Below, piece after piece: positions 1,486-17,682 of a stretch of DNA of 64,000 bases (the stretch's first letter is position 1; the number at the start of each line of letters is the position of its first letter). A model generated the notes under the pieces. The model made no database searches, was not told where the DNA came from, and saw nothing but the letters and a program-made list of their open reading frames with translations. Made by a program: the position numbers and the translations under genes. This DNA comes from Stutzerimonas stutzeri TS44 (GTDB lineage Bacteria; Pseudomonadota; Gammaproteobacteria; Pseudomonadales; Pseudomonadaceae), in the NCBI GenBank assembly GCA_000263395.1, contig AJXE01000003.1, forward strand, positions 62,001-126,000, read 5' to 3'.

Positions 1486-1519
1486 GCCCCGTCGCATCGC
1501 GGCGGGGCTTTTGCTTTTG
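1486..1519 (+). terminator. Rho-independent terminator after the NCS2 permease
   Basis: Stem GCCCCG (1486-1491) pairs with CGGGGC (1503-1508) and is followed by TTTTGCTTTTG. It ends the permease transcript just before the ribosome site of the LysE gene. Confidence 0.65.
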
Positions 1520-1532
1520 TCAGGAGGAAGTG

Positions 1533-2159: not shown

Positions 2160-2176
2160 CTTGACGGCGCGGGCGC

Positions 2177-2224
2177 GCCAGCCCGGGCCGTGATGCAGGG
2201 CAAGGCCTCACGGCCCGGGCTGGC
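2177..2224. repeat. 17-bp stem hairpin downstream of the LysE gene
   Basis: GCCAGCCCGGGCCGTGA (2177-2193) is perfectly complementary to 2208-2224 with a 14-base loop. There is no following T run, so it is not a standard intrinsic terminator; it may protect the 3' end of the message or be a repeated element. Confidence 0.6.
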
Positions 2225-2234
2225 CAGTGGGCTC

Positions 2235-2977
2235 GCAGGGTGGAAAACCATGCAGCGTTTTCCGCCTTGGTGGGTTTCGGCGCGTGTCTCGGTGTGTATA
2301 ACGTCGCGCTTTCCTCGGCATGGGCTACAGGTTGCGCCTTGCACGGCGCCTCACTTTTCTTTGCACGCGCAAAGAAAAGTAAGCAAAAGAAAGCGCGCCC
2401 CTTCATCCGGGTCCGGGAGCGCAGCTCCCGGACTTCCCTCCTTCCGCCAGCACTCCGGGGACCGGCGTACAAGGGCCATCCCTGGCCTTTACGCCTCTCG
2501 CGGCATCCATGCCGCTCGCTCCCCTGCGTGCTGGCTTCACTCGGCCGTCTGCAAGGGGAAGAGTGGTGTTGCCTGTCGGGCCGTGCATGGAAAAGCGAAA
2601 GGCGAAGCAAAGCGAAGCCGGCTTTCGATCCTTCAGGCGACTCGGACTCCCTTCCCCTTCAGGAGGCCGAACGCAGGCGTTGCGCAGGGGGACGCGAGGC
2701 ATGGACGCCGAGCGAGTCACGAAGGGACAGGGACGTCCCTTCGTGACGTGCCCCTGGAGCAATGCCGGAGTGAGGGAAGTCTGGTCGCGCAGCGGCCAGA
2801 CCCGGATGCAGGGGGCGCCTTCTCTTTGGTTACTTTCTCTTGGCCAGACAAGAGAAAGTGACGCGCCGTGCAAGGCGCAACCTGTAGCCCGAGCCGAGGA
2901 AAGCGCCACGCCAGACACAAGCGTGCGTGCCGCCCTTGGAGCCAAACGCTGCGCGGCTTTCAACCCTATGGTTTTTC
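2235..2977. repeat. Diverged large palindrome made of nested hairpins
   Basis: This gene-free stretch of about 740 bp is an imperfect inverted repeat centred near 2610. A 28-bp block is identical in opposite orientation at 2322-2349 and 2863-2890, and similarity continues on both sides, covering roughly 300 bp or more per arm. Each arm also holds its own hairpins: a 12-bp stem at 2353-2380 (left) matched by 2832-2859 (right), and GTCCGGGAGC/GCTCCCGGAC at 2411-2433 matched near 2780-2801. Open frames here encode low-complexity peptides rich in K, R and P in all directions and are not believable genes. It resembles multi-copy intergenic repeats of pseudomonads; that is recollection, not a search result. 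Confidence 0.7.
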
Positions 2978-2995
2978 TCGGCGACATAACTCCCC

Positions 2996-3023
2996 CCATA
3001 AAAAACCCGCCACAAGGGCGGGT
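2996..3023 (-). terminator. Rho-independent terminator of uraH
   Basis: ACCCGCC (3005-3011) pairs with GGCGGGT (3017-3023) around a 5-base loop. On the minus strand the stem is followed by a run of T (plus-strand A at 2999-3005), downstream of the uraH stop codon. Confidence 0.8.
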
Positions 3024-3062
3024 AAAAGGGACTCAGAGAGAGTCATTGCACGGCAAGAGGAA

Positions 3063-3416
3063 TCAGCTACCCCGATAGGTGGAATAGCTATACGGCGAAA
3101 TCAGCAGCGGCACGTGATAGTGATCCTGCCCGGCATCGATGCCGAACCGGAGCACCACTTCATCGAGAAACGCCGGCGCGCCCAGCGTCACGCCGCGGCG
3201 CCGGTAGTAATCGCCCGCCTGGAAATGCAGCTGGTAGACGCCCGAGCGGTAATCGCCCCCTTCCAGCAAGGCGCTGTCGCAGCGGCCGTCGGCATTGGTT
3301 TCGCGGGTGGCGACCAGCTCCAGGCCCTGCCCCTCGACGCGAAACAGCGTCACCTTGATGCCGCTGCCCGGACAACCGTGCGCCGCATCCAGTACATGTG
3401 TGGTCAAACGTCCCAC
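3063..3416 (-). CDS. uraH: 5-hydroxyisourate hydrolase (transthyretin-like)
   Basis: Hydrolyses 5-hydroxyisourate to OHCU, the second step of urate breakdown; a soluble tetramer in the family. The 117-aa product starts VGRLTTHVLD and ends with the diagnostic C-terminal YRGS signature. His7 near the N terminus, the DGR arginine and the HYHVPLL histidine match known active-site positions. GTG at 3416 is chosen because GGAGG lies 5 bases upstream and it gives the usual family length; an in-frame extension to 3689 would add an atypical leader across the control region. It is transcribed away from puuE and shares that control region, which holds TTGTATACAC-type dyads. Confidence 0.95.
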   Translation of the reverse strand: MGRLTTHVLDAAHGCPGSGIKVTLFRVEGQGLELVATRETNADGRCDSALLEGGDYRSGVYQLHFQAGDYYRRRGVTLGAPAFLDEVVLRFGIDAGQDHYHVPLLISPYSYSTYRGS

Positions 3417-3493
3417 GAGCACCTCCGCTTGTTTGAAAGTGGGTTGAGGATAGCCAAGCCGGTGCAAAATATTCAAGACAATATTCGTATATT

Positions 3494-3503
3494 TTGTATA
3501 CAC
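3494..3503. promoter_or_regulatory. Putative operator TTGTATACAC upstream of uraH
   Basis: Nine of ten positions match the dyad TTGTATACAA seen perfectly at 3645 and 14835. It lies 78 bases before the uraH start in a very AT-rich patch (about 3470-3510) that stands out in this GC-rich DNA. Inference: a regulator of the urate genes binds here. Confidence 0.5.
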
Positions 3504-3624
3504 AAAAGACACACCACGCTTTCCACCCTCCTCCCCAGCACCCGCCGTACCCGCAACGCTTAAGCCGACGCTATATAGCAGACTGCCATAAGGCGGCAGG
3601 CGGCACGCTGGGCGATTTTTATGG

Positions 3625-3653
3625 TTTACATTGCGCAATCTATTTTGTATACA
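3625..3653 (+). promoter_or_regulatory. Putative sigma-70 promoter of puuE-uraD-alc
   Basis: TTTACA (3625-3630), a 17-base spacer, then TATACA (3648-3653). The -10 element lies inside the TTGTATACAA dyad, so a protein bound to the dyad would block RNA polymerase. Confidence 0.55.
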
Positions 3654-3654
3654 A
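3645..3654. promoter_or_regulatory. Putative operator, perfect dyad TTGTATACAA
   Basis: Perfect 10-bp palindrome 50 bases before the puuE start and overlapping its likely -10 box. The same sequence occurs at 14835-14844 before the binding-protein/TetR pair and a TTGTGCACAA version at 9875-9884 before the Tsx-type porin. Confidence 0.6.
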
Positions 3655-3704
3655 TCAAGCCATCCGGTCGCACTGCTGCGACCCGCCATACAGGACCCAT
3701 CGCC

Positions 3705-4637
3705 GTGAGCGCCGACTACCCCCGCGACCTAATCGGTTACGCCAGCAATCCGCCCCATCCCCAATGGCCAGGCGAGGCCCGCATCGCCCTGTCCTTCGTG
3801 CTCAATTACGAGGAAGGCGGCGAACGCTGCGTGCTGCATGGCGACAAGGAATCCGAGGCCTTCCTCTCCGAGATGGTCGCCGCGCAGCCGTTGCAGGGCG
3901 TGCGCCACATGAGCATGGAATCGCTCTATGAATACGGCAGCCGCGCCGGCGTGTGGCGTCTGCTCCGGCTGTTCAAGCGCCACGACATTCCGCTAACCAT
4001 CTTCGCCGTCGCGATGGCCGCCCAGCGTCATCCAGAGGTGATCAAGTCGATGGTCGCCGACGGCCACGAGATCTGCAGCCACGGCTACCGCTGGATCGAC
4101 TACCAGTACATGGACGAAGCCGAGGAGCGCGAGCACATGCTTGAGGCGATCCGCATCCTCACCGAACTGACCGGTGAACGCCCGCTGGGCTGGTACACCG
4201 GCCGCACCAGCCCCAACACCCGGCGCCTGGTACGCGAGGAAGGCGGCTTCCTCTATGACTCCGACACCTACGACGACGACCTGCCCTACTGGGACCCCGA
4301 TTCCGCGCCGGTCAAGCCGCATCTGGTGATCCCCTACACGCTGGACACCAACGACATGCGCTTCACCCAGGTGCAGGGCTTCAACAGCGGCGACGACTTC
4401 TTCAATTACCTGAAGGACGCCTTCGACGTGCTCTACGCCGAAGGCTGCGAAGGCGCGCCGAAGATGCTGACCATCGGCATGCACTGCCGCCTGCTCGGGC
4501 GCCCGGCGCGCATGGCCGCGCTGGCCCGCTTCATCGACTACGTGAAGGGCCATGAGAAGGTCTGGTTCGCCCGCCGCGTCGATATCGCCCGCCACTGGCA
4601 CGCCACTCACCCCATGACTGCGGAGCGCAACGCATGA
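3705..4637 (+). CDS. puuE: Allantoinase PuuE (polysaccharide-deacetylase fold)
   Basis: Converts allantoin to allantoate. It belongs to the PuuE type, related to NodB-like deacetylases rather than to the metal-dependent amidohydrolase allantoinases. The 310-aa product begins SADYPRDLIGY after a GTG start; AGGA is 9 bases upstream. LSFVLNYEEGGE (about 29-40) and HEICSHGYRW (121-130) match the NodB-domain motif regions of this family. Its stop overlaps the uraD start by ATGA, so the two are translationally coupled. A longer reading from 3621 would cross the promoter and operator and is unlikely. Confidence 0.95.
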   Translation: MSADYPRDLIGYASNPPHPQWPGEARIALSFVLNYEEGGERCVLHGDKESEAFLSEMVAAQPLQGVRHMSMESLYEYGSRAGVWRLLRLFKRHDIPLTIFAVAMAAQRHPEVIKSMVADGHEICSHGYRWIDYQYMDEAEEREHMLEAIRILTELTGERPLGWYTGRTSPNTRRLVREEGGFLYDSDTYDDDLPYWDPDSAPVKPHLVIPYTLDTNDMRFTQVQGFNSGDDFFNYLKDAFDVLYAEGCEGAPKMLTIGMHCRLLGRPARMAALARFIDYVKGHEKVWFARRVDIARHWHATHPMTAERNA

Positions 4638-5149
4638 GCGCGTTCAAGACCATCAAGCCTTCGACTCTCGACCGCGACGCCTTCGTCGCCACCTTTGCCG
4701 ATGTCTACGAGCACTCGCCGTGGGTCGCCGAAACCGTCTACGACGCCGGCGTCGACGCCACGCTGGACGACGTCGAGGTCATGCACCGCCGCCTGTCGCA
4801 GGTGATGCTCGCCGCCGACCACGCCACCCAACTGGCGCTGGTCAACGCTCACCCGGATCTCGCCGGCAAGGCCGCGATTCGCGGCGAGCTGACGGCCGCC
4901 AGCACCAGCGAGCAGGCCGGCGCCGGCATCCACGAATGCACCGCCGAGGAGTTCGCCCGCTTCACCGAACTCAACGATGCGTACAAGGCCAGGTTCGGCT
5001 TCCCCTTCATCATGGCGGTCAAGGGCAGCGACCGGCACCAAATCCTCGCCGCGTTCGAGGAGCGCATCCACAACAGCCCCGAGCAGGAATTCGCCCGGGC
5101 GCTGGCGGAGATCAACAAAATCGCCCGGTTCCGGCTGGAGGCGATGTAA
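4634..5149 (+). CDS. uraD: OHCU decarboxylase
   Basis: Decarboxylates 2-oxo-4-hydroxy-4-carboxy-5-ureidoimidazoline to S-allantoin, third step of urate breakdown. The 171-aa protein shows the family signatures HPDLAGK (73-79, containing the catalytic-type His), SEQ (92-94) and FGFPFI (121-126). It overlaps puuE by 4 bases and precedes alc by 64 bases, forming a catabolic operon puuE-uraD-alc. Confidence 0.95.
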
Positions 5150-5213
5150 CAGGCAACACCGCAACACAGGCAACAAAGGCAGAAACCGCTCAATTCCAAT
5201 CAGGGCAGATGAC

Positions 5214-6209
5214 ATGAAAGCTTACGCCGCACCCTTCGAAAAATACGTCAACCTGGCCGACGCCCGCCTGGGCACCCGTGCCATTTCCGTCACCGATGAC
5301 TGGTTCGCCGATGTCAACCGGATGTTCCAGCCCGGTCCGGCCGTATGGAAGGAGGGCGTGTTCGATGACAACGGCAAGTGGATGGACGGCTGGGAGTCGC
5401 GCCGCAAGCGCTTCGAGGGTTACGACCATGCGGTGATCCGCCTCGGTGTGCCGGGCTGGATCAAGGGCGTGGACATCGACACCAGTTTCTTCCGTGGCAA
5501 CGTGCCGCCGTCGGCCTCGCTGGAAGCCTGCTTCGTCGCCGAGGGTGATCCGAGCGATGACACGGTCTGGACGGAAATCCTCCCGGCGGTGGACCTCAAG
5601 GGCGACAGCCATCACTACCACGAGATCGCCTGCGAGCAGCCGGTCAGCCACCTGCGCTTCAACATCTACCCGGACGGCGGCGTGGCGCGCCTGCGCGTGC
5701 ACGGCATCCCCTATCGCGACTGGAGCAGCATCGGCGACAACGAGCAGGTCGACCTGGCTGCCGCGCTCAACGGCGGCCGCGCACTGGCCTGCTCCGACGA
5801 GCACTTCGGCCGCATGAGCAACATCCTCAACCCGAACCGCGGCGAGAACATGGGTGACGGCTGGGAAACCGCCCGCCGCCGCACGCCGGGCAATGACTGG
5901 GTGATCGTCGCCCTCGGCCATCCGGGCGAGATCGAGCGCATCGTCGTCGACACCCTGCACTTCAAGGGCAACTACCCGGACAGCTGCACCATCCAGGCGG
6001 CCTACGTGAAGGGCGGCACCGACAGCCAGATCGAGACGCAGAGCCTGTTCTGGCGCGAACTGCTGCCGAGCCAGAAGCTCTCCATGCATGCGGAGCACGA
6101 GTTCGTCGAGCAGATCGCCAAGCTCGGCCCGGTGACGCACGTGCGCCTGAACATCTTCCCGGACGGCGGCGTCAGCCGACTGCGCCTGTTCGGCAAGGTG
6201 GCGAAGTAA
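5214..6209 (+). CDS. alc: Allantoicase
   Basis: Hydrolyses allantoate to ureidoglycolate and urea. The 331-aa product has the two tandem allantoicase repeats, about residues 17-170 and 185-330; each carries the conserved pattern ending in a gDGWEsrRrR block ([10 protein letters not shown] in the first, [10 protein letters not shown] in the second) and an NIYPDGG/NIFPDGG segment. ATG at 5214 fits the known family N terminus ([18 protein letters not shown]). An upstream in-frame extension would read through uraD and is rejected. Urea released here would need a urease elsewhere. Confidence 0.95.
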
Positions 6210-6223
6210 GGGGGCTGTGGTGG

Positions 6224-6303
6224 GCCGTCATGGTGGGCTGAAGCCCACCATGACGGCTGCGGCGGAATCAGCTCAATTGTGTAGGGTGGGCTTCAGCCCA
6301 CCC
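6224..6303. repeat. Pair of REP-like hairpins in opposite orientation
   Basis: The first hairpin (6224-6257) is a 14-16 bp perfect stem with core GGTGGGCTGAAGCCCACC; the second (6284-6303) has the reverse-complement core GGTGGGCTTCAGCCCACC with a 9-bp stem. The two are 26 bases apart, like a BIME-type REP pair, in the gap between alc and allA. They may stabilise or attenuate the operon message. Confidence 0.75.
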
Positions 6304-6362
6304 GATGAACCAGGCCCGCAGCATGCGCGGCTACCCAGCACACTACTGACAACGAGAATGCC

Positions 6363-6866
6363 ATGCGTACGCTGACCATCGAACCTCTGACCAAGGAAGC
6401 CTTCGCCCCCTTCGGCGACGTCATCGAGACCGAGGGCAGCGACTATTTCATGATCAACAACGGCTCCACCCGCCGCTATCACAAGCTGGCGACGGTGGAG
6501 ACCGCACAGCCGGACGATCGCGCCATCATCAGCATCTTCGCCGCCGAAGCACTGGAGATGCCGCTGGTCATCCGCATGCTGGAGCGTCATCCGCTGGGCA
6601 GTCAGGCCTTCGTGCCGCTGCACGGCAACCCCTTTCTGGTCGTGGTCGCGCCACTTGGCGATGCACCTGTACCGGGTCACGTCCGCGCATTCGCCAGCAA
6701 TGGCAGGCAGGGCGTCAATTACCACCGCGGCGTCTGGCACCACCCGGTGCTGACGATCGAAAAGCGGGATGAATTCCTGGTGGTCGATCGCAGCGGTTCT
6801 GGCAACAACTGCGACGAGTACTTCTTTACAGAGGATCAGCAACTCCTCCTCGACCCCCAACCCTAA
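6363..6866 (+). CDS. allA: Ureidoglycolate lyase
   Basis: Splits ureidoglycolate to glyoxylate and urea, the last step of the ureide branch. The 167-aa cupin-like protein has the family pattern: TKEAFAPFGDVIE near the N terminus, FVPLHGNPFLVVVAP in the centre and YHRGVWHHPVL before the C-terminal third (histidines of the cupin fold). It is separated from alc by the REP pair and followed 48 bases later by puuD in the same direction. Confidence 0.93.
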   Translation: MRTLTIEPLTKEAFAPFGDVIETEGSDYFMINNGSTRRYHKLATVETAQPDDRAIISIFAAEALEMPLVIRMLERHPLGSQAFVPLHGNPFLVVVAPLGDAPVPGHVRAFASNGRQGVNYHRGVWHHPVLTIEKRDEFLVVDRSGSGNNCDEYFFTEDQQLLLDPQP

Positions 6867-6914
6867 TAAGAAAACCCGGCCGTCTCTGCGAAGGTCGGGA
6901 AGAGGTACGTAAAA

Positions 6915-8144
6915 ATGGATGCTCATCTGACCGAATGGCTAAACCTGGGAATCCGCTGGATTCACATGATCGTCGGCATCGCCTGGATCGGTGCTTCGTT
7001 CTATTTCGTCTGGCTGGAGAACAACCTCAACCGCAGCAACCCGCGCGAAGGACTATCGGGTGACCTCTGGGCCATCCACGGTGGCGGTATCTACCATCTG
7101 GAGAAATACAAGCTGGCACCACCGCAGATGCCGGAGAACCTGCACTGGTTCAAGTGGGAGGCCTACACCACCTGGCTGTCGGGCGTCGCCCTGCTGCTGG
7201 TGGTCTACTACCTCAACCCTAGCCTGTACCTGATCGCACCGGGCGTCGAGCTGTCCCCCGCCGCCGCGGTGGCGATCGGCTTCGGTTCGCTGATCGCCGG
7301 CTGGTTCATCTATGACCTGCTCTGCGATTCGCCGCTGGGCAAGACTCCGGCGCTGCTCGGCCTGGTGCTGTTCGTGCTGGTGATCGCCGCCTGCTGGGGC
7401 TACACGCAGATCTTCAGCGGCCGCGCGGCCTACATCCATACCGGCGCGCTGATGGGCACCATCATGGTCGGCAACGTGTTCCGCATCATCATGCCGGCCC
7501 AGCGCGCACTGGTCACCGCCATCGAGCAGAACCGCACGCCCGACCCGGTGCTGCCGGCCAAGGGCCTGCTGCGTTCGCGGCACAACAACTACTTCACCCT
7601 GCCGGTGCTGTTCATCATGATCAGCAACCACTTCCCGAGCACCTACGGCAGTCAGTACAACTGGCTGATCCTCGCCGGTCTGGCGGCGCTCTCGGTGCTG
7701 GTGCGGCACTTCTTCAATACCCGTCACGACAGCAACCGCTTCGCCTGGGCACTGCCGGCAGCTGCCGTCGGCATGATCTGCCTGGCCTTCGTCACCACGC
7801 CGAATCGCCAGCCAGCCGCGCCGACCCTCGCCGCCACGCCGGCCGAACGCGCCAGCGCAGCGGCCGCCGCCCATGCGCAGGGCTCGATGTTCGAGGAGGT
7901 CAACGAGGTGATCCACGAGCGCTGCACCGTCTGCCATTCGGCCCAGCCGAGCAGCCCGATGTTCAGCGCCGCGCCGGCCGGGGTGATGTTCGACACACCC
8001 GAGCAGATTCGCCTGCAGGCGGCGAAGATCCACGCGCAGACCGTCGCCAGCCAGATCATGCCGCTGGGTAACATCACCCAGATGACCCAGGATGAGCGCG
8101 ATCTGCTGGCCAGCTGGATCGCCGAGGGCGCCAGCATCGAGTGA
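6915..8144 (+). CDS. puuD: Membrane urate hydroxylase PuuD with C-terminal cytochrome c
   Basis: Oxidises urate to 5-hydroxyisourate, passing electrons to a respiratory chain rather than to oxygen as classic uricase does. The 409-aa protein starts with the PuuD motif around WIHMIVGIAWIGASFYFVWL, has about eight membrane helices over residues 1-300, and ends in a cytochrome c domain with the haem motif CTVCH at 337-341 and a likely axial Met near 382. No soluble uricase gene is in the window, so this protein supplies the first step and completes the route urate to glyoxylate plus two urea. A strong terminator follows. Confidence 0.93.
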   Translation: MDAHLTEWLNLGIRWIHMIVGIAWIGASFYFVWLENNLNRSNPREGLSGDLWAIHGGGIYHLEKYKLAPPQMPENLHWFKWEAYTTWLSGVALLLVVYYLNPSLYLIAPGVELSPAAAVAIGFGSLIAGWFIYDLLCDSPLGKTPALLGLVLFVLVIAACWGYTQIFSGRAAYIHTGALMGTIMVGNVFRIIMPAQRALVTAIEQNRTPDPVLPAKGLLRSRHNNYFTLPVLFIMISNHFPSTYGSQYNWLILAGLAALSVLVRHFFNTRHDSNRFAWALPAAAVGMICLAFVTTPNRQPAAPTLAATPAERASAAAAAHAQGSMFEEVNEVIHERCTVCHSAQPSSPMFSAAPAGVMFDTPEQIRLQAAKIHAQTVASQIMPLGNITQMTQDERDLLASWIAEGASIE

Positions 8145-8161
8145 CACCCCGCCTGTCGATC

Positions 8162-8194
8162 ACGCGGCCCGCCACTGGCGGGCCGCGTCATTTT
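8162..8194 (+). terminator. Rho-independent terminator after puuD
   Basis: A perfect 12-bp stem, ACGCGGCCCGCC (8162-8173) with GGCGGGCCGCGT (8177-8188), has a 3-base loop and is followed by CATTTT. It closes the allA-puuD unit. Confidence 0.8.
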
Positions 8195-8280
8195 CGCCCT
8201 GCCCCATTGCGTTCGATCATCCACGGGCACGCCAGCTTGGCTAAAATGCGCGCCCCGCCCCCCCCGTCGGACACCCCCCG

Positions 8281-9861
8281 ATGATTGAAGCCAGCTGGAT
8301 CGCCTTCGCCTTTACCCTGGGCCTGATTGCCCGAGCCATCAGCCTGCCGCCGCTGATCGGCTACCTGGGCGCCGGTTTCGCCCTGGCGGCGGTGGGCGAG
8401 CACGTCGGCGTCGGCAAGCAGGATGGCGTCATCCTCCAGCATCTGGCGCACCTGGGCGTGCTTCTGCTGCTGTTCACCGTGGGCCTCAAGCTCAAGCTGG
8501 GCAACCTGGTGCGCCGCGAGGTGATCGGCGGCAGCCTGCTGCACTTCGCCATTTCCAGCGTGCTGGTGCTGCCGGCGATCGCGCTGGTATTCGACGCCAG
8601 CTGGCGCGACAGCCTGCTGCTGGCCATCGCACTGTCGTTCTCCAGCACCGTGCTGGCGGCCAAGGTGCTGGAAGGCAAGCGCGAGCTGAAGGCCTTCCAC
8701 GGCCGGGTGGCGATCGGCGTGCTGATCATCCAGGACCTCATCGCGCTGGTGGTGATGAGCCTGGCGGCCGGCCAGGTACCGTCGCCCTGGGCGCTGCTGG
8801 TGTTCCTCCTGCCGCTGCTGCGCCCGGCGCTGTTCCGGCTGCTCGATCACAGCGGCCATGAGGAGCTGATGGTCCTGCTCGGCCTGATGCTGGCGCTGGT
8901 GGTCGGCGGCATGGGCTTCGAGGCGGTCGGGCTGAGTGCGGAACTCGGTGCGCTGGCCTTCGGCGCCATGCTCGCCAAGCACAAGCGCGCCACTGAGCTG
9001 TCCAACTCGCTGTGGGCGATCAAGGAAGTGTTCCTGGTCGGCTTCTTCCTGCAGATCGGCATCGGCGGCCTGCCGGATACCGACGCGATGATCTTCGCCA
9101 CCATCGTGGCGCTGCTGCTGCCGCTCAAGGGCGTGCTGTTCTTCTTCCTGTTCCTCGGCTTCCGCCTGCGCGCGCGCAGTGCCTTCCTCAGCGCCTCGAG
9201 CCTGACCAACTACAGCGAGTTCGGCCTGATCGTCGCCAGCGTGGTGCTGCCGCAATGGCTGACACCGCTGGCGATCAGCGTGGCGCTGTCGTTCGTGGTC
9301 TCCGCGCAGCTCAACCGCATCGTCCATCCGATGTACGAGCGCCTGGCCAAATGGCTGATTCCGCTGGAGCGCGACACCCGCCACCCCGATGAGCAGCCGG
9401 TGTCGCTGGGCGACGCGCAGATCCTGGTGATGGGCATGGGGCGGACCGGGCGCGCCGCCTACGATCACCTGCTGCGCAAGGGGTTTCGCCTGGCCAGCCT
9501 GGACTCCGACCCGGTGATGGTCGAGCGCAACGTCGCCGAAGGCCGCAACGTGTTCTTCGCCGACGCCGAGGACCAGATGTTCTGGCAGAACCTGCAGATG
9601 AACGACGTGCAGGCCGTGGTGCTGGCGATGAACGACGCCGAGGCCAAGATCATCTCCACCACCAAGCTGCGCGCCATCGGCTTCGAGGGGCTGATCGTGT
9701 CCCATGCGCTGTACGAGGACATCGCCCAGCGCATCCAGGCGGCCGGCGCGAACCACACCTACCTGACCATGACCGAAGCCGGCACCGGTCTCGCCGAGAA
9801 CGTCGCACGGGAACTGCTGCCCGACAGCCAGCGGCCCGCCATCGAACGGATAGCGGGATAG
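8281..9861 (+). CDS. CPA2 cation:proton antiporter with RCK domain (KefB/YbaL-like)
   Basis: A 526-aa inner-membrane protein that probably exchanges K+ or Na+ for H+. Residues 1 to about 370 form the Na+/H+ exchanger domain with helices such as LPPLIGYLGAGF and the IIQDLIALVV signature of CPA2 carriers. A Rossmann TrkA-N/RCK domain follows from about residue 379 (ILVMGMGRTGRAAYD), which would bind nucleotide and gate transport. ATG at 8281 follows a GC-rich segment without a clear ribosome site, but the N terminus fits the family. It sits inside the purine region without an evident purine role. Confidence 0.88.
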   Translation: MIEASWIAFAFTLGLIARAISLPPLIGYLGAGFALAAVGEHVGVGKQDGVILQHLAHLGVLLLLFTVGLKLKLGNLVRREVIGGSLLHFAISSVLVLPAIALVFDASWRDSLLLAIALSFSSTVLAAKVLEGKRELKAFHGRVAIGVLIIQDLIALVVMSLAAGQVPSPWALLVFLLPLLRPALFRLLDHSGHEELMVLLGLMLALVVGGMGFEAVGLSAELGALAFGAMLAKHKRATELSNSLWAIKEVFLVGFFLQIGIGGLPDTDAMIFATIVALLLPLKGVLFFFLFLGFRLRARSAFLSASSLTNYSEFGLIVASVVLPQWLTPLAISVALSFVVSAQLNRIVHPMYERLAKWLIPLERDTRHPDEQPVSLGDAQILVMGMGRTGRAAYDHLLRKGFRLASLDSDPVMVERNVAEGRNVFFADAEDQMFWQNLQMNDVQAVVLAMNDAEAKIISTTKLRAIGFEGLIVSHALYEDIAQRIQAAGANHTYLTMTEAGTGLAENVARELLPDSQRPAIERIAG

Positions 9862-9873
9862 CCGGCCGGAATA

Positions 9874-9885
9874 ATTGTGCACAAT
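9874..9885. promoter_or_regulatory. Putative operator, perfect dyad ATTGTGCACAAT
   Basis: A 12-bp perfect palindrome that fits TTGT-N2-ACAA, the form shared with the uraH/puuE and TetR control regions. A second, wider dyad TTGTTTAAACAA is at 9898-9909 and a weaker ATGTGCACAG at 9910-9919, all just before the likely extended -10 at 9922-9930. Confidence 0.55.
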
Positions 9886-9983
9886 ATTCACAAATTATTG
9901 TTTAAACAAATGTGCACAGGTTGCTATGATCGGCCCGTCCCGCGTTCCCTCTCGCTTTGCGGCGCGCGGGTGACGGAGGCGCC

Positions 9984-10016
9984 GTGAAGCCTCTCATGCC
10001 GAACAACAACAAATAA
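9984..10016 (+). CDS. Possible 10-residue leader peptide before the porin
   Basis: GTG at 9984 follows GGAGG (9975-9979) by 4 bases and encodes VKPLMPNNNK before TAA. It lies in the predicted leader between the operator cluster and the porin gene. An Asn-rich short frame with its own ribosome site could be an attenuator-type leader, but the reading is short enough to be chance. Confidence 0.25.
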   Translation: MKPLMPNNNK

Positions 10017-10236
10017 GGCAGGCTTGACCATGACCGCAAACCGCAGCGCCGCCGCTCGCCACCGCCGTGCCGAGCGAGCAGCCCAGCCCCACCCGCCCGT
10101 CCGCGCCTCATCGCCCGCAGCCGACACACTCGCCGTGCCAGCGCGTTCCGCTTTTGCGTCGCCTGGCGCATCGCCGATAATCCGCGCCGCTCACCGCCCG
10201 GCTTCACGCACGAAGATTTCCGCAGGAAACGCCACC

Positions 10237-11061
10237 ATGACCCGCAAGCTCGCCCCGCTCTGCCTCGCCCTCGCCGGCAGCCTTCTCGCCGCCCCCGCAA
10301 TGGCCGGCGATGCACTGCTCTGGCAGAACAACAGCCTGACCTACCTGTACGGCAAGAACTTCAAGATCGCCCCGGACACCCAGCAGACCGTCACCTTCGA
10401 GCACGCCAGCGGCTGGGCCTGGGGCGACATGTTCCTGTTCGTCGACAGCCTCTGGTTCAACGGACCCAACGGCAACGACGGCCACACCTACTACGGCGAA
10501 TTCAGCCCGCGCCTGTCGCTGGGCAAGATCAGCGGCCGCGACCTGTCGTTCGGCCCGATCAAGGATGTGCTGATCGCCGCCACCTACGAGCGCGGCGAAA
10601 GCCAGGACGATGGCACGCCGAACCAGAACTACCTGCTCGGCCCGGCCGTGGACCTCAACGTGCCCGGCTTCGACCGCCTGGCACTAAACCTCTACTACCG
10701 CAAGCCCGACGGCAGCACCGGCAAGCCCTCCGGCCAGTGGCAGCTGACCCCGACCTGGGCGATGACCTTCCCGGTGGGCAAGTCGGACATCCTCTTCGAC
10801 GGTTTCATCGACTGGGTGATCAACGACGCCGGCTCCGAACGCCGTGGCGACTTCATCTCGAAGAACCTGCACATCGTGCCGCAGATCAAGTACGACCTGG
10901 GCAAGGCGCTGAACTACACCCCCGGCCGGCTCTACGTCGGTATCGAGTACGACTACTGGTCGGACAAGTTCGGCATCGAGGACGGCGGCTACGTCAGCCG
11001 CAATTTCGTCGGCAAGACCGACCAGAACACCTTCAGCGCCATCGTCAAGGCGCATTTCTAA
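10237..11061 (+). CDS. Tsx/OmpK-type nucleoside channel, outer membrane
   Basis: A 274-aa outer-membrane beta-barrel expected to let nucleosides through, feeding the purine pathway. Residues 1-23 are a signal peptide ending AMA, cut before GDALLWQNN. The N-terminal NSLTYLYGKNFKI and GWAWGDMFLFVD segments are typical of the channel-forming Tsx family, and the protein ends in aromatic Phe as barrel proteins do. ATG at 10237 is chosen because AGGA precedes it and the signal peptide starts there; an in-frame ATG at 10030 would add a 69-residue low-complexity Arg/Ala leader and destroy the signal peptide. It follows dyads shared with the urate genes. Confidence 0.88.
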   Translation: MTRKLAPLCLALAGSLLAAPAMAGDALLWQNNSLTYLYGKNFKIAPDTQQTVTFEHASGWAWGDMFLFVDSLWFNGPNGNDGHTYYGEFSPRLSLGKISGRDLSFGPIKDVLIAATYERGESQDDGTPNQNYLLGPAVDLNVPGFDRLALNLYYRKPDGSTGKPSGQWQLTPTWAMTFPVGKSDILFDGFIDWVINDAGSERRGDFISKNLHIVPQIKYDLGKALNYTPGRLYVGIEYDYWSDKFGIEDGGYVSRNFVGKTDQNTFSAIVKAHF

Positions 11062-11090
11062 GGTCTGCTACGGGCCTGCTGCGACGAAGG

Positions 11091-11119
11091 AAAAGGGCGA
11101 CCTGCGGGTCGCCCTTTTT
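11091..11119 (+). terminator. Rho-independent terminator after the Tsx-type porin
   Basis: GGGCGACC (11095-11102) pairs with GGTCGCCC (11107-11114) and is followed by TTTTT, with AAAA before it. Confidence 0.85.
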
Positions 11120-11246
11120 CGTGGTTCAGCCAGTATTGTCGTAGAGACCGCGATTACCGAGCGCACTCGGCAATCAGCATGCTCTCCGAAGGCAGTCGCA
11201 ACACGCCGGCAGTCCGGCCCTTCCAGGCCGGTCCACAAGCAACCCC

Positions 11247-13178
11247 TTACAGCCGGAAACTCCCCATCTGCCGCCCGAGGTCCTCGGCCAGTTGCGAGAG
11301 CGCCTGGCAGTCGCTGCGGCAGGCCTGCACATCGCGCGCCGTGGCCTGGGCCAGGTCGGCGATCCCCTGCACGTTGCGGGTGATCTCCTCGGTGACGCTG
11401 CTCTGCTCCTCGGTCGCCGCGGCGACCTGGGTGTTCATGTCACTGATGGCCTCGACCTGCTCGGTGATCGCGCCCAGCGACTGACCGGTGCGCTGGCTGG
11501 CCTGCACCCCGGTGCCGGTGGCGGCCTGCCCGGCGTGCATCGAGGCAACGGCATTGTCGGCGCCGCTCTTGAGCCGCTGGATCATCTGCTGGATCTCGTC
11601 GGTCGAGCCCTGCGTGCGACTGGCCAGCGTGCGCACCTCGTCGGCGACCACGGCAAAGCCGCGGCCCATCTCGCCGGCCCGCGCCGCCTCGATGGCCGCG
11701 TTCAGCGCCAACAGGTTGGTCTGCTCGGAAATGCCACGGATGACCGCCAGCACCTGATCGATCGACGCCACCTGCTGCGCCAGCTCGGTCACCGAGCCGG
11801 CCGCCTCGCCGATCTCGCCGGACATCTTTTCGATATGCGCGATCGACTCGCCAACCACCCGGCGCGCCTGCACGGCCTCGTCACGCGCGCCCTGCGAAGC
11901 CTGCGCCGCGTTGCTGGCATTGCGCGCGATATCCTGCACGGTCAGCCCCATCTCGTGCACGGCGGTGGCCACCATGTCGGTCATCTCGTGCTGGCGGCCG
12001 GCACGTGTGGCGGTGTTGTCGACCACCTGCGCGACCTGGCCGACAGCGCCGCGCAACCGTTCGCTGGTGGTCAGAGCATCACCGATCAGCTCGCGCAGGC
12101 TGCCGAGGAAACGGTTGAAGCCGCGCGCCAGGTCGCCCAACTCGTCGGCGCGGCTTTCATCCAGACGCCGGGTCAGGTCACCACCGCCGCCGCCGATCTC
12201 CACCAGCGCCGCGGTCACCTGGCGGATCGGCCGTACCAGCCCGCGCGCCAGCAGCACGATCACGCCGAGAAACGCCAGGCCGACGGCCGCGCCGATCAGG
12301 GCAGTGGTCCACAGCGTGCGCCGGGCTTCGCCGAAGATTTCGGCTTCGGGCACCTCGCTGACCAGCCACCAGCCGAGTCCTTCCAGCCGCTGCGCCATCG
12401 CCAGGAATGCCTCGCCGTCGCGCTCGAAACGCACCACCTTATCGCCGCCGCTCTGGAGCTCGCCGGCTGCCGTCTCGCCGGTCAGCTCGGCCAGCGCCAC
12501 GTGGTCGTTGTTCTCGTTGCGCGGATGCACCTTGACCCGGCCGTCGGCACCGACCAGATACACCTCGCCACGCTCGCCGAAGCGGAAATTGGCCACCAGC
12601 TCGGACATGCTGCTCAGGCTGTAGCCCAGTCCGGCGACGCCGAGGGTGCGACCGTTGACGCTGATGCGCTGGTTGATGAACAGCGTCGGCTGGCGGCTGG
12701 CCTTGTCGATATCGATCTCGAAGCGTTTCTCCACGCTGCCGTCGATCAGGCTGTAGAACCAGGCGTCGCCCGCCGCTGCGCGCGACAAGGTGCGGCTCAG
12801 GCCGGTCTCGGAATAGTAGTTGCCGCTGTCGAGCACCGCGATCGAGGTCGTCAGCGCGTTCTGCTGCGCCTTCACGCCTTGCAGGTAGCGGCCGATGGCC
12901 TGCCCCTCGCCCGCGTCCTCGCCGGCCGTGAGCCAGTCATGCACCAGCGTATTGCCGGCGATGCCGGCCGTTGCGGTAACCGGCCCGCTGAGCGTGCGCT
13001 CGATGTCGTTGCGGATGGCGGTGATGCTGGCTGGCAGGGCTTCGCCGATCAGGTAGCGCTCGGCAAGTCGGTCGACAGCCGAGGCATAGACCAGGATCAC
13101 GATCAGCAGGCTGGTCAACAGGGCGGCGCCCATGCTGACCGCCAGTTGCCATTGAATACTGCGTTGCATGAAGCGCAT
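11247..13178 (-). CDS. Methyl-accepting chemotaxis protein, dCACHE sensor
   Basis: A 643-aa inner-membrane chemoreceptor. One membrane helix (about 14-35) leads to a periplasmic sensor of about 240 residues with the double-CACHE pattern ([40 protein letters not shown]). A second helix (about 290-312), a HAMP domain (to about 366) and a signalling hairpin follow, with the conserved tip [19 protein letters not shown] near 480-500. No C-terminal CheR/CheB tether is evident. ATG at 13178 has GGAG 7 bases upstream. It shares a TTGT-N2-ACAA-rich control region with the DMT gene and lies among purine genes, so a purine or nucleoside ligand, as for McpH of P. putida, is a reasonable inference. Confidence 0.9.
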
Positions 13179-13214
13179 GGCATGACTCCGTTTTTATAGG
13201 TATTAATGATTATT

Positions 13215-13236
13215 CTGTGGACAATCTTGTATACCG
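13215..13236. promoter_or_regulatory. Two imperfect TTGT-N2-ACAA sites before the chemoreceptor gene
   Basis: CTGTGGACAA (13215-13224) and TTGTATACCG (13227-13236) lie 12 bases apart, 37-58 bases before the chemoreceptor start. Each departs from the perfect dyad by one or two positions. Confidence 0.4.
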
Positions 13237-13434
13237 ATATCACGGTTCGGTAAGTCGCTATCGGCCCGCGCAGCCGTTACTTGAGACCGCTCATCCATTA
13301 CCGAACCCACGTGCGATCAGGGATTTACAGGCCTATCCGGTTTGCGCGCGCAGCACTTTCGGTGCGATGGCGCGCTCGTCACGACGCCATCTGCGAGCGC
13401 AATGCGAGATGAACGGAATCATTCAACGGCATGA

Positions 13435-13444
13435 ATGTATACAA
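13435..13444. promoter_or_regulatory. Imperfect dyad ATGTATACAA before the DMT gene
   Basis: Nine of ten positions match TTGTATACAA, 30 bases before the start of the DMT gene. With the pair at 13215-13236 it brackets the divergent control region. Confidence 0.45.
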
Positions 13445-13473
13445 TCTGCAAAAACTTGCCTGGAGAAACTCCG

Positions 13474-13923
13474 ATGCCGATGTTTGCCTGGTGGCTACTC
13501 GCCCTTCCCCTGATCGCAGGTGCGGTACTGCCGCTGCAGGCCGGGATGAATGGCGAGGTGGCCCGCCAGCTCACCAGCGTGATGAACGCCGCGCTGGTGT
13601 CGTTCGCGGTCGGCACGCTGGCGCTGCTGTGCATCGTGCTGTGGCAGCGCGACCCGCCCACGCTGCAGGGATTGCGCGGAATCACCTGGTGGCACTGGAG
13701 CAGCGGCCTGCTCGGGGTCTTTCTCATCGCCACGGCGGCCTTCGCCGCACCGCGCGTGGGCGCCTCGCTGTTCATGGGGCTGCTGCTGGCCGGGCAACTG
13801 CTGATGGCGTTGCTGCTCGACCAGTTCGGCTGGGCCGGCTATCGCCAGGCGCCGATCAGCCTGGGCAAGGCGGGCGGCGTGCTGCTGGTGTTCGCTGGCG
13901 TCTGGCTGATCCGACGTGGCTGA
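13474..13923 (+). CDS. Small DMT-superfamily transporter (YdcZ/DUF606-like)
   Basis: A 149-aa integral membrane protein with about five helices. PLQAGMNGEVARQLTSVMNA near the N terminus, the GVFLIATAAFAAPRVGASLF segment and a closing GGVLLVFAGVWLIRRG helix match the YdcZ family of single-domain drug/metabolite transporters, which probably act as dimers. The substrate is not known. ATG at 13474 follows GGAG by 8 bases; an in-frame ATG at 13435 would start inside the operator. It diverges from the chemoreceptor and shares its control region. Confidence 0.85.
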   Translation: MPMFAWWLLALPLIAGAVLPLQAGMNGEVARQLTSVMNAALVSFAVGTLALLCIVLWQRDPPTLQGLRGITWWHWSSGLLGVFLIATAAFAAPRVGASLFMGLLLAGQLLMALLLDQFGWAGYRQAPISLGKAGGVLLVFAGVWLIRRG

Positions 13924-13935
13924 CGGCACCGGCGC

Positions 13936-14750
13936 CTATCGCACCGCCGCTTCCTTCGCCTTCTGCCGTTCGAGGAAGTCGACCTTCCACTGCTCCATGC
14001 CGAGGTATTCCGAGTCGAGGCCGGCTTCCACCGCGTACTTGCGCTTCAACGCGGTGATCGTGCCGCGGTGCTCATCGAGAAAACGGTCGAACCGCTGGAT
14101 CAGCTCCCGGTGGCGCACGCTGGACAGGTGGTAAGTACCGCGACTGTGCGGCAGCTGCGCATCGAACACCAGCGCGCCGGACTTGGTGCGCACGTGGTTG
14201 AGGTAATGCATGGCGACGACGATGTTGTAGTAGGCGCCGTCGGTTTCCTTGAGCATGGCCTGGCGGATCATGCGCGGCAGATCCTGCCGATCAGCAGGAT
14301 CTGCCCGCCATCGACCTGCGTCTCGTAACCGCGCGGCGTCCAGCCATCGACCACCGCCAGCCGCTTGAGCTGCTCGACGTCCAGCCCCAGCCGTCGCGGC
14401 GCGACCATGACGCCATCGGCATAGGCCACCGTCGCCTGGCTGTAATGCAGCGTATGACCGGTCTTGTCCGTCGCGGACCAGACCGGGCTGTCCGGATACT
14501 TGAGATCGATGCTGCCGGCGAGCAAAGCCGGCAGCAGCTCGTCGGCCGGCAACGGCCGGTAGACCAGGCGTACCCCGCTCCGCGTGGCGAAGGCATCCAG
14601 CAGATCACGTGCGAACCCCCGGTAGTCACCGGTTTCGTCCACGCTGTAATGAGGCATAAAGTGCGCGTCTTCGACGCCGACGACATAGGTCGGCTCGGCA
14701 TGCGTCGTGGCAGAGAGGATGAGCATGGCGCTGGCAATGAGCGGCTTCAT
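13936..14750 (-). pseudogene. Frameshifted periplasmic solute-binding protein (SBP_bac_3 type)
   Basis: Two adjacent frames together make one amino-acid-type binding protein of about 270 residues. The first (14750 to 14268) encodes a signal peptide (MKPLIASAMLILSATTHA), then EPTYVVGVEDAHFMPHYS and further family sequence, and stops after GGQILLIGRICRA. The second frame, open from before 14271 to 13936, continues DLPRMIRQAMLKETDGAYYN to a normal end. One base seems to be missing. The break coincides with a perfect 12-bp inverted repeat at 14276-14305. Either the gene is broken or the read is wrong there. GGAG precedes the ATG at 14750. It diverges from the TetR gene and may have supplied a ligand or its sensing to the purine region. 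Confidence 0.75.
14276..14305. repeat. Perfect 12-bp inverted repeat at the frameshift
   Basis: GGCAGATCCTGC (14276-14287) and GCAGGATCTGCC (14294-14305) with a 6-base loop lie exactly where the reading frame of the binding-protein gene changes. Confidence 0.85.
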
Positions 14751-14834
14751 CAACTTCTCCGTGCAGATCGTTGTTGTTCTTGTTCGTCCGTGGTGCGCGC
14801 CGCCGCAGCGTGACGAAGGACTGGCGCCAGACAA

Positions 14835-14844
14835 TTGTATACAA
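14835..14844. promoter_or_regulatory. Putative operator, perfect dyad TTGTATACAA
   Basis: Identical to the site before puuE. It lies 85 bases before the binding-protein start and 145 bases before the TetR start, so it could serve either divergent gene. Confidence 0.55.
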
Positions 14845-14988
14845 CGATGCAGACAATCACTCCGGACGCGGCCTACCCTTGTTGTAACCGGCCCGCTGCC
14901 GCAGAATTTCCGCACTTTTGCCCAGCGCTCGTCATCGAGCAGTCCTGAGTCGGTCGCGACCGACCCCGCCGCGGAAATCGAACAACCC

Positions 14989-15615
14989 ATGTCCAGTATC
15001 CGAGAGCGCAACAAAGAACTGATCCTGCATGCCGCCAGCGAGGAATTTGCCGAGAAGGGCTTCGCCGCGACCAAGACCAGCGACATCGCCGCGCGCGCCG
15101 GGCTGCCCAAGCCCAACGTCTACTACTACTTCAAGTCCAAGGAAAATCTCTATCGCGAGGTGCTAGAGAGCATCGTCGAGCCGCTGCTGGAGGCCTCGGC
15201 GCCGTTCAACCAGCCCGGCCATCCGGCGGATGTGCTGCGCGCCTACATCCGCACCAAGATCCGCATCTCGCGCGACCACGCCTGTGCGTCGAAGGTCTTC
15301 GCCAGCGAGATCATGCATGGCGCGCCGCACTTGTCCCCGGAGCGCACCGCCCAGCTCAATGCGCAGGCGGCGCACAACATCGCCTGCATCCAGCGCTGGA
15401 TCGACCTGGGTCTGATGGCCAGGGTCGATCCTCATCACCTGATGTTCAGCATCTGGGCGGCGACGCAGACCTATGCCGATTTCGACTGGCAGATCAGCAC
15501 CGTCACCGGCAAGGCGCAGCTCGACGATGCCGACTACACCGCCGCCGCCGACACCATCATCCGCCTGGTGCTCAGGGGCTGCGAGATCGCCGAGCCAGCC
15601 GCACCGTCTGCGTGA
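14989..15615 (+). CDS. TetR/AcrR family transcriptional regulator
   Basis: A 208-aa DNA-binding repressor. The N-terminal helix-turn-helix is clear: ELILHAASEEFAEKGFAATK followed by SDIAARAGLPKPNVYYYFKS (residues 31-50) and ENLYREVLE. The larger C-terminal ligand and dimer domain (from about 80) has RutR-like character, for example IRISRDHACASKVFASEI and MFSIWAATQTYADFDWQ. RutR in E. coli senses uracil, so a nucleobase-type ligand is possible but unproven. ATG at 14989 gives the standard N terminus. It is a candidate for the protein that binds the TTGT-N2-ACAA sites, although that dyad also suits GntR-type proteins and a regulator could lie outside the window. Confidence 0.88.
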   Translation: MSSIRERNKELILHAASEEFAEKGFAATKTSDIAARAGLPKPNVYYYFKSKENLYREVLESIVEPLLEASAPFNQPGHPADVLRAYIRTKIRISRDHACASKVFASEIMHGAPHLSPERTAQLNAQAAHNIACIQRWIDLGLMARVDPHHLMFSIWAATQTYADFDWQISTVTGKAQLDDADYTAAADTIIRLVLRGCEIAEPAAPSA

Positions 15616-15639
15616 GGGCGACGGGCGCTGGCCGGTGGA

Positions 15640-17682
15640 TCAGAACGCCAGCCGCACGCCCACGGTCAGGTTGCGCCCCGTTAGCAGCACGTCGTCCTTG
15701 ATGAAGGAGGTGTGCTGGCGCGCCTTCTCGTCGAGCAGGTTGTTGGCCTTCAGATAGAGCAGGTAGTCGGTCTGGTTCAGCGCGCCGCTGTAACCGAGGC
15801 TGGCGCCCAGCATGTTGTAGCCGCCGGTTTCGGTCTCGTAGGCGGCCAGCTCGTCCTGACGCTGCACGCGGTAGAACTCCAGCTGGCCGTTGAGCGCCGG
15901 CGTGAAGCTCTGCTCGACTCGTACGCCCAGGCGGTCGGCCGGAATGCGCGGCAGGTCGCCGCCGCCGTCACGCAGCTTGCCGCGTACATGGTCGCCGAAC
16001 AGGGTGAAGGCGGTGGCATCGGTGGCCTGAAAACGCACCTCGCCTTCCGCGCCGGTAAGCACCGCATCCTGCTGGCGGTATTCGATCTCACGATAGCCGC
16101 CGCCGATATCGTGGCCGGTGTCGGCGGCATAGATGAAGTCATCCACCTGGTTGCGGAACAGGCTGAAGCTGAAGGTGGTGCGCCCGGCGAACTTGCGCAG
16201 CGTCAGCTCGGCGTTGTGCGAGGTTTCTTCCTCGAGATCGAGATTGCCCAGTTCGACGGTACGCGTGGCGGCATGCGGGCCGTTGGCGTACAGCTCCTCG
16301 GCGCTGGGCAGGCGCTGCGAGCGCGACAGCGAGAAGCCCAGCGAGTACTGCGGGGCGAACGTCCACACCGCGCCGGCGGACAGCGAGGTGCCGCTGTGAT
16401 CGGTATCCGAACGGCCGTCGGCGTCGATGTCCTGCCATTCGTGACGCAGGCCAAGCTCGTAGCGCCAGGCCCCGGCGGTGTATTCCTCGAGCAGGAACAG
16501 GCCGTGGTTGCGCGTCAGCGTCTGGGGTATGTAGGCCTCTTCGCCGAGGGCTTCGAAGTCGCGCCGCAGGGTCTGCGCGCCGAGCACACCGCGCCAGCCG
16601 AACAGCGGCTGGTGCGTGAGTTCCAGGCGCGCATCGGTGGCGTCGTTGTTGAAACGGGTACCGACTTCGCCGCCTTCGATTTCCTCGTGCTGGTAGTTGC
16701 TGTGGCCGACGCGCAGGCGCGCCAGTGCAAAACCCGGCAGCGGATCGCTCAGCTCGCCACGCAGGTCCCAGCGTTTCTGCTGCATGTCGACGTAGGGCAC
16801 CGCGCCTTCGTCCTCGTGCTCGTCGTGCTCGTCGTGCTCGTCGTGTTCGTCGTCCTCTTCATCCTCGTCGTGGCCGCCACAGTGCCAGGCGCTGCCATCG
16901 ATGTGGCAGTCGACGTGTTCGTGACCCAGCAGCCCGTAGCGGTTGTTCTGTTCGCCGTAGGCCACGCCCAGGTAGCCGCGCTCACCGATGTAGCTGACGC
17001 CGAGGGTAAAGCTGTCGGTGTCGTTGTAGGACCCGGCCTGCTTGTCCGGCGAACCCGGAATTTCGTACTCGTCAGCCTGGCGCTTGGTACCTTCGGCACG
17101 CACGGCGAAGTTGCCGCTGCCGGCGGTGATGCCGAACACGCCCGCGCCTTCGTTCGCCACGCTGTTGGCGCGCAGTTCCAGCTCGCCCTCGTAGCCTTTC
17201 TCCGGAATGTAGGTGGGAATCTTCCGGTCGATCACGTTGACCACACCGCCGATGGCGCCGCCGCCGTACAGCAATGCCGCCGGCCCCTTGAGCACCTCGA
17301 TGCGCTCGGCCAGCAGCGGTTCGCTGGTCACCGCATGGTCGGGACTGATGGTCGATGCATCGAGCAATTCCACGCCGTCGCTCAGTACCTTGACCCGCGC
17401 GCCGTCCAGTCCGCGAATCACCGGCCGGCCCGCACCGGCGCCAAAGCTGCTGGAGCGCACTCCGGGCAGGCTTTCCAGGGTTTCGCCGAGGGTCGCCTCG
17501 CGGCGCAGCAGCAGTTCGTCACCCTCCATGACCGCGGCCGGCGTGGTCATCTCGTGACTCTGCCTGTCCAGTCCGCTGGCGCTCACCACCACCGGTTGCA
17601 ATTCGAGCGGATCGGCACCCCAGACGGACGCCGGCAGCGTAAGACCGATGGCCCAGGCCAGGGGGTGAAGCTTCAGTTTCAT
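15640..17682 (-). CDS. znuD: TonB-dependent zinc receptor, ZnuD type
   Basis: A 680-aa outer-membrane receptor. Residues 1-23 are a signal peptide ending VWGA; the plug domain follows (LGETLESLPGVRSSSFG, RPVIRGLDGARVKVLSDG, VLKGPAALLYGGGAIGGVVNVID), then the barrel, ending in aromatic Phe. A loop near residues 270-295 is packed with His, Asp and Glu (EEDDEHDEHDEHDEHEDE) next to two Cys, as expected for zinc capture in ZnuD proteins. GGAG precedes ATG at 17682. A Zur-like palindrome about 100 bases upstream supports zinc control. It reads towards the TetR gene (convergent). Confidence 0.88.
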   Translation of the reverse strand: MKLKLHPLAWAIGLTLPASVWGADPLELQPVVVSASGLDRQSHEMTTPAAVMEGDELLLRREATLGETLESLPGVRSSSFGAGAGRPVIRGLDGARVKVLSDGVELLDASTISPDHAVTSEPLLAERIEVLKGPAALLYGGGAIGGVVNVIDRKIPTYIPEKGYEGELELRANSVANEGAGVFGITAGSGNFAVRAEGTKRQADEYEIPGSPDKQAGSYNDTDSFTLGVSYIGERGYLGVAYGEQNNRYGLLGHEHVDCHIDGSAWHCGGHDEDEEDDEHDEHDEHDEHEDEGAVPYVDMQQKRWDLRGELSDPLPGFALARLRVGHSNYQHEEIEGGEVGTRFNNDATDARLELTHQPLFGWRGVLGAQTLRRDFEALGEEAYIPQTLTRNHGLFLLEEYTAGAWRYELGLRHEWQDIDADGRSDTDHSGTSLSAGAVWTFAPQYSLGFSLSRSQRLPSAEELYANGPHAATRTVELGNLDLEEETSHNAELTLRKFAGRTTFSFSLFRNQVDDFIYAADTGHDIGGGYREIEYRQQDAVLTGAEGEVRFQATDATAFTLFGDHVRGKLRDGGGDLPRIPADRLGVRVEQSFTPALNGQLEFYRVQRQDELAAYETETGGYNMLGASLGYSGALNQTDYLLYLKANNLLDEKARQHTSFIKDDVLLTGRNLTVGVRLAF
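16816..16851. repeat. Four 9-bp tandem repeats coding for DEH in znuD
   Basis: The unit GTGCTCGTC occurs three times and GTGTTCGTC once, head to tail. On the coding strand it reads Asp-Glu-His four times in the metal-binding loop. Such a run can change length by slippage without frame loss. Confidence 0.85.

Follow-up and report, generated by a model that had tools for sequence, protein, structure and literature searches.

A TTGT-N2-ACAA dyad at urate catabolism, transport and chemoreceptor genes of Stutzerimonas stutzeri TS44 is the probable operator of a UgmR-like GntR repressor

The locus and its recurrent dyad

We analysed a stretch of 64,000 nucleotides from Stutzerimonas stutzeri TS44 (contig AJXE01000003.1, positions 62,001 to 126,000; hereafter the window), in which genes for urate catabolism lie near genes for a purine permease, a Tsx-type nucleoside porin, a McpH-type chemoreceptor, a YdcZ-type transporter, a solute-binding protein and a TetR-family protein (Table 1). 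A short dyad, TTGT-N2-ACAA, recurs in the control regions of these genes. Our analysis indicates that this dyad very probably serves as the operator for a GntR repressor of the FCD type, a probable orthologue of Pseudomonas aeruginosa UgmR, that is encoded just left of the window.

Table 1. Genes and sites of the locus; positions are those of the window unless a contig is named
Feature	Position	Strand	Remarks
GntR/FCD protein gene	G000:C3:60944-61696	divergent from the NCS2 permease at 122-1468	251 residues
Permease operator (putative), TTGTATACAC	G000:C3:61985-61994		7-16 bp left of window; in -35/-10 spacer
NCS2 purine permease	122-1468	+	PF00860; divergent from GntR gene
uraH, hydroxyisourate hydrolase	3063-3416	-	PF00576, TIGR02962
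uraH operator (putative), TTGTATACAC	3494-3503		one mismatch
puuE-uraD-alc-allA-puuD operator (putative), TTGTATACAA	3645-3654		perfect; overlaps likely -10 TATACA (by eye)
puuE, allantoinase	3705-4637	+	TIGR03212
uraD, OHCU decarboxylase	4634-5149	+	PF09349
alc, allantoicase	5214-6209	+	TIGR02961
allA, ureidoglycolate lyase	6363-6866	+	PF04115, 207 bits
puuD-type urate oxidase	6915-8144	+	PF06181
Distal Tsx-promoter operator (putative), TTGTGCACAA	9875-9884		perfect; in relatives, promoter of permease gene
Proximal degenerate dyad, ATGTGCACAG	9910-9919		just ahead of likely -10 TATGAT (9925-9930); 3.1 bits
Tsx-type nucleoside porin	10237-11061	+	PF03502; likely start at signal peptide, open frame begins upstream
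McpH-type purine chemoreceptor	11247-13178	-	best solved match 8BMV McpH, E 7.4e-68
Degenerate dyad ahead of chemoreceptor gene	13215-13224		one mismatch; 7.5 bits
Second degenerate dyad	13227-13236		12 bp off the first; 5.7 bits
Sigma-28-like promoter of chemoreceptor gene, TCAAGTAA-N11-GCCGATAG	13258-13284	-	13/16 positions
YdcZ gene operator (putative), ATGTATACAA	13435-13444		one mismatch
YdcZ-type DMT transporter	13474-13923	+	PF04657
Family-3 solute-binding-protein gene	13936-14750	-	two open reading frames here; PF00497 on first piece
Binding-protein-gene operator (putative), TTGTATACAA	14835-14844		perfect
RutR-like TetR gene	14989-15615	+	PF08362; neighbour, not likely binder

The dyad was searched as TTGTNNACAA, and a narrower form was written TTGTRYACAA. 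The window holds three perfect copies of TTGTNNACAA, where 0.20 would be expected, and none of 100 shuffled windows reached three. A preceding sequence-only reading had roughly estimated that a perfect dyad should occur well under once per 64 kb, and every site that it had listed, perfect or mismatched, is present at its position. Its placement of -10 boxes in or next to dyads also agrees with the likely -10 elements of puuE and tsx. Including the three one-mismatch copies of Table 1, the window has 21 copies with at most one mismatch (6.5 expected); the copies at 9910 and 13227, read directly in the sequence, have two mismatches. We scored the window with a matrix whose training set was 57 different exact sites in the gntR-upstream and puuE-uraH regions of other species. 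The five best matches in the 64 kb were those at 3645, 9875, 14835, 13435 and 3494 (17.2-25.6 bits), and the next scored 8.7 bits at 46782. By the matrix taken alone, the copies at 13215, 13227 and 9910 are weak. For gene sets outside the training set, a locus was counted as having a site when one above 8 bits lay within 500 bp.

Conservation of the dyad and its candidate binder

The gntR gene starts roughly 300 bp outside the window, beyond its left end. Its product passes the Pfam cut-offs for both a GntR helix-turn-helix domain (61.1 bits, cut-off 27) and an FCD domain (83.4 bits, cut-off 24.3). The region between gntR and the divergent permease gene contains two sites, a perfect TTGTGCACAA at C3:61796 and a one-mismatch TTGTATACAC at C3:61985. 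As gntR has a conserved site of its own, a GntR-type protein encoded outside the window, one of two binders that the sequence-only reading had put forward, is the stronger candidate.

To follow the dyad among relatives, named genomes of Stutzerimonas and Pseudomonas were scanned, in which at least 597 stretches matched, and the best 80 of 539 relatives were kept as orthologue loci. An exact TTGTNNACAA lies ahead of gntR in all 80, while the flanking sequence varies by species, and the 1.54 Mb of these loci contain 159 exact matches compared with 11 for the reversed pattern. The dyad also lies between puuE and uraH in every one of the 26 kept loci that hold both genes, whose intergenic regions together contain 27 copies of TTGTATACAA and 11 of TTGTGTACAA. 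Orthologous promoters thus preserve the dyad, as had been anticipated. The permease promoter retains it too: among the 23 distinct relatives displayed, all of them rows with a site, it stands mid-way in a conserved TTG...ATAATC frame and is exact in 22 and CTGTATACAA in one. The middle of the -35/-10 spacer is the usual place of a repressor site. The matrix found the gntR site in 30/30 GntR loci, taken from 54 places, a result that is not independent because the matrix was trained on gntR-upstream regions.

The form of the dyad is that of a GntR operator. It fits the general consensus of the family, NyGTNxACNy, given in the accessible part of PMC4494728. The FadR/FCD subfamily combines, as here, a GntR helix-turn-helix with an FCD domain and a palindromic GT-N2-AC operator. 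Against the strict FadR form GTM-N0-1-KAC, GTATAC fits, whereas the GTGCAC and GTGTAC centres, which make up 77 of the 103 gntR-upstream matches, fit incompletely. The predicted targets, namely purine entry, sensing and urate breakdown, likewise set this protein apart from the subfamily. Within P. aeruginosa, UgmR (PA1520) represses PA1513-PA1518 and gcl and is relieved by uric acid and not by allantoin, according to the accessible text of PMC12694930. As the gene order here matches the UgmR arrangement, with a GntR-family gene beside an NCS2 permease gene and urate-catabolic genes and with sites at the latter, we regard the protein as a probable UgmR orthologue. The predicted regulon differs from that of UgmR: no site was found at gcl here, and sites lie at the genes for the chemoreceptor, the Tsx porin, the YdcZ transporter, the binding protein and the second permease.

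The other binder proposed by the sequence-only reading was the RutR-like TetR protein encoded at 14989, which would bind the dyad and control the cluster. It has a TetR_C_3 domain, its best solved match is RutR, and its gene occurs in 53 of 56 genomes of the genus, two genomes (G009 and G025) lacking both the TetR and the GntR gene. A RutR-type TetR protein, PA1504, has moreover been proposed as a possible allantoin-responsive regulator nearby (PMC12694930, accessible text). The TetR protein of the window scores 171.9 bits, far below the RutR family cut-off of 368. The site itself does not follow the TetR gene. Among 30 TetR loci, taken from 54 places, it was present in 7/7 where the nearest upstream gene was a divergent binding-protein gene and in 6/6 where this was a chemoreceptor gene, and in 0/17 otherwise; it precedes gntR in 80/80. 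The site near the TetR gene thus goes with the divergent neighbour, and the TetR gene is a bystander of this motif. We rejected the TetR protein as the binder on this neighbour pattern (13/13 versus 0/17) and consider such a role very unlikely. The short GT-N2-AC dyad is moreover of the GntR type, and the Escherichia coli RutR site is longer and different. A palindrome of its own ahead of the TetR gene was also sought; the commonest, of a GGGGC type (12/30), resembles a terminator that would serve the gene before it.

A different GntR paralogue from elsewhere in the genome could also bind the dyad, as GT/AC half-sites are common to GntR proteins and another such protein, PA0120, has a site at gcl (accessible text of PMC12694930). 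We find this highly improbable: it is the cluster-adjacent gntR gene that has a conserved site in all 80 loci, and close relatives have just 1 to 3 exact TTGTRYACAA copies outside the loci considered here. A probable UgmR orthologue acting at these sites remains our preferred explanation, and the sequence-only proposal of one regulator for purine sensing, entry and breakdown is strengthened by the conservation of sites at puuE-uraH, at the permease genes and at mcpH.

Several observations weigh against this explanation. The identity with PA1520 is probable and rests on gene order and annotation. Genome-wide, the exact dyad occurs 17 times in 4.28 Mb, below the 26 copies of the reversed control, so by count it is not over-represented; the count says little and position does the work. 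Chance AT-rich palindromes of promoter regions would fit such a total, a reading that we hold to be practically negligible given that the dyad is conserved while its flanks drift in both Stutzerimonas and Pseudomonas and that no shuffled window matched the three perfect copies. Eight of the exact genomic copies have a non-RY centre; all of them lie inside predicted open reading frames (ORFs; mechanical calls) and are taken as chance. When up to one mismatch to TTGTRYACAA is allowed, the genome shows hardly any enrichment (97 copies versus 82 in the control; their positions were listed for contigs up to C8), which means that a lone mismatched site is weak evidence unless it is conserved. Clustering at purine genes, which the sequence-only reading had expected, was found in part. 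Four of the 17 exact copies, C3:61796 among them, lie within C3:61796-76844, 15 kb with purine genes (Poisson P ~5e-7, for a stretch chosen post hoc). The expected sites before xdh and guanine deaminase are absent: C19:38001-58000 contains none with at most one mismatch, and its best matrix score is 5.0 bits. Nor does gcl (C19:68967), the UgmR target of P. aeruginosa, have a site, the best score in C19:58001-76000 being -1.2 bits. Finally, tsx has a site immediately in front of it in 5 of 30 Tsx loci, and the chemoreceptor gene of the window owes its pass at 8 bits to the ydcZ-facing site, with both nearer sites scoring below this.

Promoters of the porin and chemoreceptor genes

The 30 Tsx loci were drawn from more than 100 matches and include paralogues. 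The five with a direct site lack an upstream permease gene. Of the 25 others, 22 have an NCS2-type permease gene that ends 72-162 nt before tsx, and its product is 78-100% identical to the permease of locus L038 (Pfam PF00860); of the remaining three, one has a partial permease match at 47% and two have none. An exact TTGTGCACAA precedes the Tsx-linked permease gene in the eight loci that reach that far, with the permease start codon 142-143 nt downstream in seven of them; the eighth locus ends before the start. The Tsx leader of the window aligns with the permease promoter and the first permease codons and then diverges. The simplest reading of this alignment is that the NCS2 permease gene was deleted in the window's lineage and that its promoter was left driving tsx, which would also explain the Tsx leader of about 300 nt. 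At the position of the dyad at 9910, the five relatives shown have ATGTTCACAG or CTGTCTACAG.

A second NCS2-type permease gene, on contig C2, has one exact dyad just ahead of it. This gene lies outside the training set, and a site above 8 bits was found at -73 to -95 in all 19 orthologues of at least 80% identity (shuffles 3.7%); paralogues of 44-49% identity were left out. The dyads at the C2 gene (G000:C2:270310; L017:6001-6010 and 6034-6043) are TTGTATACAA and TTGTCTACAG, 33 bp apart. Many relatives have TTGTCTACAT as the second dyad, 34 bp away, and the Tsx pair is 35 bp apart. The relict permease start in the Tsx leader is preceded by an A-rich AACAACAACAA (10001-10016), and in many relatives ACAAGAACAACA precedes the start of the C2 permease gene; these stretches resemble Hfq/Crc target sites.

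The chemoreceptor of the window belongs to the purine-binding class. Its ligand-binding domain aligns with the dCache_1PU domain of P. putida McpH (8BMV), and the purine-binding positions Y121, R129, W140 and F167 are identical. Position 169 is N, where the published set has D. N is often seen at this position, although the D169N change in McpH lowers adenine affinity 80-fold (PMC11245519, as far as its text was accessible).

A dyad near the start of mcpH is widespread. We took 30 of 36 places in the genus and then the best-scoring 19, not used before, of 65 places, 18 of these 19 coming from other genera of the family. A site was found in 26/30 loci of the first set (shuffles 4.0%) and in 19/19 of the second (shuffles 1.1%), and it lies at -25 to -70 in 41/49 (23/30 and 18/19). 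In the second set one site is at -199 and the rest are at -38 to -65. Pairs of dyads 11-13 bp apart, as in the window, occur in 2/30 and 6/19 loci, respectively. For the window and two near relatives (L147-L149), 8 bits is reached only through the ydcZ-facing site. Six McpH loci of the genus were found to contain ydcZ (L147-149, L171, L172 and L174), and all six have such a site, 257 to 270 nt before the start of the chemoreceptor gene.

The sigma-28 consensus consists of TAAAGTTT or TCAAGTTT, a spacer of N10-12, and GCCGATAA. Scored against this consensus, 43 of the 49 chemoreceptor upstream regions have a sigma-28-like promoter matching at 12 or more of the 16 positions, compared with 1.7% of 980 shuffles. 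In the window, the dyads at 13227 and 13215 sit about 15-37 nt downstream of the transcription start expected from this promoter.

The proposed regulon and further sites

We infer that this GntR protein binds the sites described above and that urate is its ligand here. A dimer would bind TTGTRYACAA and block RNA polymerase: at the permease gene from within the -35/-10 spacer, at puuE from over the likely -10 element, and at the chemoreceptor gene from just downstream of the sigma-28-like promoter. Uric acid, either imported or made by xanthine dehydrogenase, would release the repressor. Release would lead to joint production of the purine permeases, the Tsx-type outer-membrane channel, the McpH-type chemoreceptor and the enzymes that convert urate to ureidoglycolate, and the repressor would regulate its own gene. 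A UgmR-type regulon thus appears, on the distribution of its predicted operators, to extend into purine sensing and entry.

For the chemoreceptor, FliA and the repressor would act as a joint gate. It is likely that the mcpH genes of Pseudomonadaceae have a flagellar sigma-28 promoter and, just past the transcription start, an operator for UgmR, which would restrict the receptor to cells that are motile and also contain urate, and, with this, that the deletion of an NCS2 permease gene in the window's lineage left a UgmR-controlled promoter on tsx. Such a gate would explain why purines raise the mcpH transcript in P. putida, as reported from earlier work in PMC6363813; the passages found of that paper and of PMC11245519 give no mechanism for this induction. 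Chemotaxis, chemoreceptor, McpH, PctP, porin and transporter are all words absent from the one accessible paper on UgmR. The atlas made by high-throughput systematic evolution of ligands by exponential enrichment (HT-SELEX) does not mention PA1520 in its main text, and the searchable literature, which leaves subscription papers outside, yielded no published link between UgmR and McpH.

For a repressor known so far from urate and glyoxylate genes, the dyad offers a concrete putative operator, and it probably widens the reach of this repressor to chemotaxis and uptake. It also gives a testable reason for the purine induction of mcpH, namely that a nutrient receptor may be made on demand. The regulon seems to shift between relatives, with gcl lacking a site here and transporter genes having them, and in one case the neighbour of a deleted permease gene has apparently taken over its promoter.

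Three close relatives have 7, 6 and 8 exact TTGTRYACAA copies per genome. By position, five in each lie at the gntR pair, puuE, tsx and the second permease gene, and one further copy in each precedes a MATE transporter gene, as it does here. In this genome that copy is a TTGTATACAA 13 bp before the MATE ORF (G000:C18:30245; L024:5001-5010), kept in the three relatives, one of which has DNA of 81% identity. The MATE transporter is thus a possible further member of the regulon. The RY sites on C17, C23 and C28 were unmatched by blastn among the extra sites of the three relatives and may be chance. The C23 site (G000:C23:42663; L025:5001-5010) is a TTGTATACAA between genes for an SBP_bac_11 binding protein, possibly for molybdate, and a LysR-type ORF.

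Within the window, either a frameshift or an error of the assembly splits the solute-binding-protein gene, the two pieces of which are adjacent to each other in relatives; the operator is intact. The TetR gene is adjoined by a gene for a TonB-dependent receptor (15640-17799) like ZnuD (622 bits, cut-off 950). An Rfam scan of window positions 1-20000 gave nothing above the gathering score. Positions 2293-2919 form a large imperfect inverted repeat with 198-nt arms that are 72% complementary, and sub-threshold matches to the TwoAYGGAY RNA occur on both strands.

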